Source of the DNA: Rhizobium sp. Leaf371
GTDB taxonomy: Bacteria > Pseudomonadota > Alphaproteobacteria > Rhizobiales > Rhizobiaceae
Reading direction: 5' to 3'
Length of the DNA: 64,000 bases
Assembly (NCBI RefSeq): GCF_001424045.1
Contig: NZ_LMQB01000025.1
Span: 139,854-203,853, forward strand
The position numbers and the translations under genes were made by a program. The notes beneath the pieces are model-generated. The model made no database searches. It was given only the letters and a program-made list of their open reading frames with translations, and had not been told where the DNA came from. This document shows, piece after piece, positions 56,823-58,160 of the stretch (position 1 is the stretch's first letter; each line of letters starts with the position of its first letter).

Positions 56823-56981
56823 GGAAAAAGCCTGCTGCGGGAGGAGGTGCAGCAGGCTTTTCCGAATATACCGAACACGGGCTGGGAGGAGGAGAGCCGG
56901 TGTTCGAACAGACGTCCCTGGGAGGAGGACGGGATCGTCTGAGGAACGAAGCTTTGCGGGAGGAGGTGCATCGCTTCGTTG
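56823..56981 (-). ncRNA. four tandem CCUCCUCCC-loop hairpins (cuckoo/CcsR-type sRNA cluster)
   Basis: On the plus strand GGGAGGAGG occurs four times (56839, 56884, 56920 and 56958), each time as the loop of a different hairpin. The hairpins lie at 56945-56980 (arms AACGAAGC/GCTTCGTT), 56909-56941 (CAGACG/CGTCTG plus inner pairs), 56872-56906 (CGAACAC/GTGTTCG) and 56823-56863 (GCCTGCTGC/GCAGCAGGC). The stems differ in sequence while the loops are identical, so structure and loop are under selection. Read from the minus strand, each loop is CCUCCUCCC, an anti-Shine-Dalgarno sequence, and the last hairpin is followed by TTTTT like a terminator. This is the signature of the cuckoo RNA family of Hyphomicrobiales and Rhodobacterales (CcsR1-4 in Rhodobacter). 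A TATACT -10 box lies just before the first hairpin. Confidence 0.85.
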
Positions 56982-56987
56982 GTGCCG

Positions 56988-56993
56988 AGTATA
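56988..56993 (-). promoter_or_regulatory. putative -10 box of the sRNA cluster
   Basis: Minus-strand TATACT. It would place the first base of the RNA near 56981, exactly at the first hairpin. I see no good -35 box, so an alternative sigma factor (for example RpoH) or an activator may be involved. Processing from the upstream exonuclease mRNA is another option. Confidence 0.45.
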
Positions 56994-57073
56994 CGGATCT
57001 CTGCCGGACTTCCCAGAGACGTCTTTGCAGTGCAGCCATGCGGTAGAAGCAGGTCTGGAACGAGGATCCGCTG

Positions 57074-58045
57074 TCAGGCGCGAAACCGGTCGAAGGCCGT
57101 CAGCCGGCGCATCGGCGGTTCCGCTTCCGCATAGCGATAGATCTCGTTGCGCAGGAAACGCAGTTCCTCATCGACGGCCTCTTCGGCGATCTCGATCCAC
57201 CAGGACTTCGGGCGTCCGTCGCTGCCATCCGCCCAGCGATAGCCCCGCGCCTTCAGGTGATCCTTCATATCGAAGGGGCTATGTTCGGCATAGATCCGGA
57301 CACGGCTGACCTGGCTCGCCTGATGCAGCTCGCAAAAGGCCGTGGGCACGCCATCGACAGCACGGTCGAGGACTTCGAGAAGCGCAAAGCAATCGTCCAC
57401 CGCCCTATGGCCTTCGTGGAAGAACCCGGCCTGGCCGATGAGATAGCCGAGCTTGCTGCCCTCATAGCCGCGGGCCGACCAGCCGACCTCCGCATTCGAG
57501 CAGGCCCAGGCCTTGCGGCCGAAGAGCGGATGGAAGGTCTCGCAGAAGGGGCGATCGAAGGCTGCGTTGTGCGCGATGATCAGATCTGCGGGCGCGATCA
57601 TCGCTTCCAGAGCAGGGATATCGATCTCCTGCCCGGCAACCATCTCGTCGGTGATGCCGGTGAGACGGGTAATCTCGGGCGGAATGGCGGCGAGAGGTTG
57701 CCGAAGACCGCCGAAAACGCCGGAGACGTCGCCGATCGCGCCGGCCTCGTTGTAGGTGAAGGCGATCGCACCGATCTCGATAATTTCGTTGCGGCGATGA
57801 TCGAGGCCCGTCGTCTCCGTGTCGAGGATGACGCCGCGCAGCGGGAAGCCGGGACGAAGCACGCTTGCGACGGCGCGCGGCTCCAGCTTGCGCAGGACCC
57901 TGTAGCGTCCGGTCCCCGTCAGGTGCTCGACGAGGTTGGCCTCGGCGACCGGGCCTGTCGGAACCGCGGCCGGCCGCGCGCGCCGCGTTGCCGGTCGTGT
58001 CGTTTCGTGCGCCTCATGCGCAAACATGTCGAACTGCACTGCCAT
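57074..58045 (-). CDS. DEDDh 3'-5' exonuclease (DNA polymerase III epsilon-like)
   Basis: A 323-residue protein with an exonuclease domain at about 65-235. ExoI is GVILDTETTGLDHRRNEIIE, ExoII lies around ADLIIAHNAAFDRPF, and ExoIII is EGHRAVDDCFAL with the catalytic His. The family is that of DnaQ-like stand-alone exonucleases. A C-terminal extension (about 245-323) has HLKARGYRWADGSDGRPKSW, a motif found in such rhizobial proteins. The ATG at 58045 (MAVQFDMF) follows AGGC; ATG 58057 and an upstream GTG are alternatives. The gene ends 93 bp before the sRNA cluster on the same strand. Confidence 0.85.
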   Translation of the reverse strand: MAVQFDMFAHEAHETTRPATRRARPAAVPTGPVAEANLVEHLTGTGRYRVLRKLEPRAVASVLRPGFPLRGVILDTETTGLDHRRNEIIEIGAIAFTYNEAGAIGDVSGVFGGLRQPLAAIPPEITRLTGITDEMVAGQEIDIPALEAMIAPADLIIAHNAAFDRPFCETFHPLFGRKAWACSNAEVGWSARGYEGSKLGYLIGQAGFFHEGHRAVDDCFALLEVLDRAVDGVPTAFCELHQASQVSRVRIYAEHSPFDMKDHLKARGYRWADGSDGRPKSWWIEIAEEAVDEELRFLRNEIYRYAEAEPPMRRLTAFDRFRA

Positions 58046-58160
58046 TGCCTGCCTCATCTGCCGATCGACCGGGGCGAAGACACCCGCTTGTTCTTTGAGT
58101 CTATGCGGACTCGCAGAGACCATTATAACGTCACGAAAGACTCACGTCAGGAGGAAGCCC

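Follow-up and report, generated by a model that had tools for sequence, protein, structure and literature searches.

NfeR1 (Smr14C2) is the founding member of αr14 (RF02344), a family of RNAs with characteristic anti-Shine-Dalgarno loops, variable stems, and multiple copies per genome. Both NfeR1 and the RF02344 model have three hairpins. The loops of NfeR1 act redundantly in the silencing of ntrB and of two transporter mRNAs (PMC10746234). Hairpins with CCUCCUCCC loops are also found in the cuckoo RNAs (CcsR1-4) of Rhodobacter sphaeroides, which have two loops per RNA according to PMC3927594. For Sinorhizobium meliloti, the same source reports three such hairpins in SmelA075 and four in SmelA099, and it relates the proposal that these RNAs form a single family whose module number varies (two, three, or four). 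SmelA099 (smrA6) was listed at pSymA 1328175-1328334, minus strand, with a length of 160 nt, among the known sRNAs for which deep sequencing gave confirmation (PMC2873474), and appears with the same coordinates and without a sigma factor in PMC7143759. SmelA075 was strongly detected after a heat shift, and shorter forms of it exist (PMC2873474).

The first-pass annotation of a 64-kb stretch of Rhizobium sp. Leaf371 DNA (the whole stretch is called the window here) had claimed a minus-strand RNA with four hairpins, unrelated stems, and an identical anti-Shine-Dalgarno loop. Indeed, the plus-strand 9-mer GGGAGGAGG is present at four sites, while 0.71 sites per window are expected by chance and four were reached in none of 100 shuffles; a search of both strands revealed no further site in the window. 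On the minus strand, where it reads CCUCCUCCC, each copy of the 9-mer occupies the loop of a separate hairpin. In the order of the RNA, these are hairpin 1 (56946-56979; loop 9-mer 56958-56966), hairpin 2 (56909-56941; 56920-56928), hairpin 3 (56873-56905; 56884-56892), and the terminator-like hairpin 4 (56825-56860; 56839-56847). The 173-nt minus-strand fold had a z score of -8.35, and none of 200 shuffles was equally stable. Among 31 four-loop sequences of Rhizobium sp. Leaf371 and its relatives, the mean probability of the 9-mer being unpaired was 0.98-1.00 per hairpin, with a lowest single value of 0.64 in hairpin 3, compared to 0.27 for the remainder of the RNA. In line with the proposed unrelatedness of the stems, the flanks of any two hairpins had only 6 to 9 of 24 letters in common.

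The two signals noted on either side of the hairpins were also located. The -10 box TATACT (56993-56988, minus strand) precedes hairpin 1, and five U (56829-56825) follow the GC-rich section of the last stem, three of them pairing with AAA in the consensus structure. Based on the Rfam match described below, the fold, and ends carried over from SmelA099, we predict an sRNA of 160 nt at approximately 56981-56822. Directly upstream of it, on the same strand, lies a gene for a 349-aa protein with an RNase_T exonuclease domain (57074-58123; PF00929, 6.7e-17), which served as a synteny marker.

At gathering thresholds, Rfam identified a single RNA in the window, αr14 (RF02344; 56823-56947, minus strand), with 97.4 bits against a gathering score of 58.8 and a complete model (positions 1-123). 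This corroborates the suspected cuckoo/αr14 type of the RNA. As in other αr14 RNAs, CCUCCUCCC is unpaired in the loops and the stems are variable yet paired. In contrast to the three hairpins of NfeR1 and of the model, the window RNA has four, the additional one being at the 5′ end: the match spans hairpins 2 to 4, which alone fit the model, and hairpin 1 lies outside. For four-loop members, the RF02344 model thus omits hairpin 1, and an annotation of the window gene based on it (56823-56947) would place the start about 34 bases late. The expectation that cuckoo RNAs usually have two hairpins holds for the Rhodobacter form, whereas three- and four-loop members from Rhizobiales were described in 2011 (PMC3927594). 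What we claim for the window RNA is membership in this wider αr14/cuckoo family of variable module number. A four-loop member is already published. The window RNA adds a new example and no new mechanism; it looks like a real, conserved, and ordinary member of the described family, from a genus of Rhizobiaceae near Ferranicluibacter.

The Rhizobium sp. Leaf371 genome harbors five αr14 copies, while none was found in 14 control genomes. Three copies have four exact loops, one has four loops of which two are changed by one base, and one has three loops. The sole three-loop copy (L005, G000:C1:760084-760200) differs in its upstream region, and a gene that hits the DusB model TIGR00737 below its cut-off follows at a distance of approximately 220 bases.

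We consider it very probable that the window RNA belongs to the αr14/cuckoo family and blocks Shine-Dalgarno sequences in trans with redundant loops. As a trans-acting sRNA, it would be transcribed from its own promoter directly behind the exonuclease gene. This promoter probably requires an activator, as the conserved box described below suggests, and the transcript would end at hairpin 4. Each loop would present an unpaired CCUCCUCCC, which could base-pair with a ribosome binding site of the GGAGG type in a target mRNA and stop its translation. The multiple equivalent loops would confer redundancy, and one RNA, or shorter processed forms of it, could engage more than one site. We infer expression, target silencing, redundancy, and processing of the window RNA from NfeR1 and SmelA075.

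Possible targets were analyzed by calculating duplex energies against random 60-mers, for which the 5% point was -12.5 kcal/mol and the 1% point was -14.9 kcal/mol. Against the assumed start of ntrB in this genome, the 11-nt loop did not stand out (-8.8 kcal/mol, a value at least equalled by 30% of the random 60-mers). With 16-nt segments comprising loop plus flank, ntrB reached -12.8 to -18.2, values in which stem bases are counted and which stand without a background. When six gene starts in the window were tried, dctP (-13.8 kcal/mol) and dctQ (-12.9 kcal/mol) were within the best 5% of the random 60-mers, and the other four were outside it. Strong Shine-Dalgarno sites are common, and these energies therefore do not amount to a target prediction. 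GGAGG sites precede the starts assumed for dctP, dctQ, and a putative dctM (53815, 54876, and 55398, plus strand) in the convergent TRAP transporter operon, and seven contiguous bases at dctP pair with the loop. The three neighboring genes are possible targets.

Instead of acting on chosen mRNAs, the loops could chiefly titrate an RNA-binding protein or the whole pool of ribosome binding sites. The four identical loops, the five genomic loci, and the freedom of the stems to vary would suit such a sponge, and the CcsR RNAs of Rhodobacter are associated with the small RNA-binding protein CcaF1 (PMC10253847). We nevertheless regard this as unlikely. NfeR1 targets individual mRNAs, and ntrB repression is lost when all three of its loops are mutated (PMC10746234). 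Furthermore, whereas CcsR1-4 form an operon with a DUF1127 gene behind an RpoHI/RpoHII promoter according to PMC10253847, no DUF1127 gene adjoins the window RNA or any other of the five αr14 copies. The genome contains six DUF1127 matches, the nearest of them 6 kb from the copy at C25:223709 and 33 kb from the window copy on the same contig. Cuckoo RNAs are characterized by stress-induced expression, and those at CIN1 loci often, though not always, neighbor a DUF1127 gene.

The first-pass annotation had allowed for two arrangements, two tandem units or one four-loop RNA. We favor one four-loop RNA, because a single -10 box precedes hairpin 1, a single U-run follows hairpin 4, and the loop spacing is nearly constant among the orthologues (approximately 38/36/45). 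A further reason is that the homologous SmelA099, with matching architecture, is recorded as a single 160-nt RNA. A pattern search of pSymA detected four chained loops at 1328192-1328319 on the minus strand, inside SmelA099. All four loops are exact (CCTCCTCCC), as in the window RNA, and their spacing is 37/36/46, compared to 38/36/45 in the window. The upstream box (with 2 mismatches in 13 positions) and the -10 box are at distances equal to those of the window RNA. The two RNAs differ in that SmelA099 resides on the pSymA replicon and in 27% of the positions (73% identity over the RNA in a global alignment). Against these points, two tandem two-loop RNAs with separate ends have precedents: CcsR1-4 of Rhodobacter are consecutive and processed by RNase E (PMC10253847), and a genome of another genus of the family contains a similar arrangement of four tandem two-loop units, 132-137 bases apart (G026:C23:266683-267130). 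For the window locus, we consider separate two-loop units very improbable. The favored four-loop primary RNA may be processed afterwards.

Base pairing was evaluated in two alignments. The first, of orthologues, comprised 14 rows with 98.3% of the cells paired and two-sided changes in 8 of 40 pairs; its 13 distinct rows represent 9 distinct RNAs, since the tails of sequences retrieved in duplicate are not the same, and it is weaker than it appears. The second, which included paralogues, comprised 29 distinct rows corresponding to 25 distinct RNA cores. Here, 96.2% of the cells were paired, a figure favored by the use of the structure from the consensus of the first alignment, and two-sided changes were found in 18 of 40 pairs. 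Three-loop copies were excluded from the second alignment, the stem comparison, the box count, and the count of loops in distinct cores; L047-L050 were excluded from the second alignment as copies of sequences from the genus. The covariation score was 0.329, compared to 0.170 (sd 0.008) for shuffled and 0.047-0.081 for slid alignments, and is to be read knowing that kinship among rows can by itself exceed the shuffled scores. Most change was in hairpins 2 and 3, with two-sided changes in 7 of 9 and 6 of 9 pairs, respectively. Covariation is thin in hairpins 1 and 4, where 6 of 10 and 9 of 12 pairs are invariant. In the wider set, the fit of hairpin 3 is poorer (91.2% of the cells paired).

The loops were better conserved than their surroundings: mean column identity was 0.88 in loops, 0.79 in stems, and 0.57 in linkers, and the loop 9-mer was exact in 111 of 116 cases in the 29 rows and in 95 of 100 cases when each of the 25 distinct four-loop cores is counted once. 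Together with the covarying stems, this bears out the proposed selection on the anti-Shine-Dalgarno loop. That the locus is a coding frame or a REP-like DNA repeat instead of an RNA gene is exceedingly improbable: hairpin 1 does hold an ATG in 12 of 14 sequences, but the ATG is missing in the other two, the frames range from 50 to 539 aa with differing ends, which led us to reject the coding reading, the base pairing covaries, and a repeat is at odds with only five copies, four of them sharing an upstream box.

The locus is kept behind this exonuclease gene in several related Rhizobiaceae. All seven genomes searched in the genus, including Rhizobium sp. Leaf371, contain a match. Five of the six others have a copy of the locus with 88-89% identity over 242-255 of 266 bases and with four exact loops; a close orthologue of the window locus is absent from the sixth (G004). 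A search for the upstream exonuclease gene yielded 52 loci, the nearest named ones from Rhizobium sp. NFR03, Rhizobium sp. PP-CC-3A-592, and Ferranicluibacter rubi. Within a flank of 2,500 bases, which is shorter at several loci, most of the 52 had no such RNA. The eight that did all had four loops, with one change in one loop of L063, and four of these eight carry RNAs identical to those of genus genomes already counted. This linkage of RNA and exonuclease gene extends to Neorhizobium huautlense, Endobacterium cereale, Ensifer sp. LC163, and Rhizobium calliandrae.

Matches were also found in 477 of 72,556 plasmid records, whose genera we take to be Rhizobiaceae. By pattern search, two neighboring exact loops were present in 52 of 61 genomes of the family and in 10 of 61 genomes of the order, the latter including Rhizobium sp. 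Leaf371 and another member of the family. The backward control of the pattern gave one match each in two family genomes (G014 and G038) and two order genomes (G092 and G108). The order matches in G108, where the control matches too, and in G114, a simple DNA repeat, may be due to chance. Beyond the genus, four chained loops were found, among the matches listed, at G020:C34, G053:C36, and G035:C1326, and in another family at G076:C6.

Upstream of the -10 box, a conserved 17-bp box was detected (in the window GCATGGCTGCACTGCAA, 57025-57041, minus strand, 31 bp before the -10). It has the consensus GCATaGCTGCacTGCAA and precedes the four-loop αr14 genes of 33 members. In 13 scored positions, 31 of the 33 had at most two mismatches, one had three, and one had four; the gap to the best -10 match was exactly 31 bp in 27. 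With the same scoring, the box was found in 1 of 9,900 shuffled sequences and in 0 of 132 other upstream stretches. These numbers refer to the 33 sequences on which the box was defined, many from close relatives, and thus do not represent 33 independent cases. In Rhizobium sp. Leaf371, four of the five αr14 copies share the box.

We recognized no -35 consensus upstream of the window RNA, where the -10 and the box are present. Simple scanners reported neither a sigma-70-type promoter nor a terminator between 56690 and 57150; the promoter was missed because there is no -35 consensus, and the terminator because its loop of 10 nt exceeds the limit of 8. The box is perhaps an activator site, which would fit an activator-dependent promoter. 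NfeR1 promoters were published with an LsrB site, TGCA-N6-GCAT (PMC10746234). By eye, neither this motif nor the NfeR1 signature CTTAGAC-N17-CTATAT was recognized at the window locus; the box differs from the LsrB motif, although it does contain T-N11-A. It is possibly undescribed so far, as it was not mentioned in the literature passages surveyed. Tentatively, the fixed position of the box 31 bp before the -10, its occurrence at paralogues on separate contigs, and its difference from published NfeR1 sites could mean that the four-loop RNAs form a co-regulated subclass of the family, although we hold this to be doubtful. If true, several four-loop RNAs would be induced together, and loop number would determine the dose of ribosome-site blocking. 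The conserved element could reveal the regulator of the four-loop RNAs. L027, a copy in G006 whose box is weaker (3 of 13 mismatches) and two of whose loops are altered (CCTTCTCCC and TCTCCTCCC), is perhaps a decaying paralogue.
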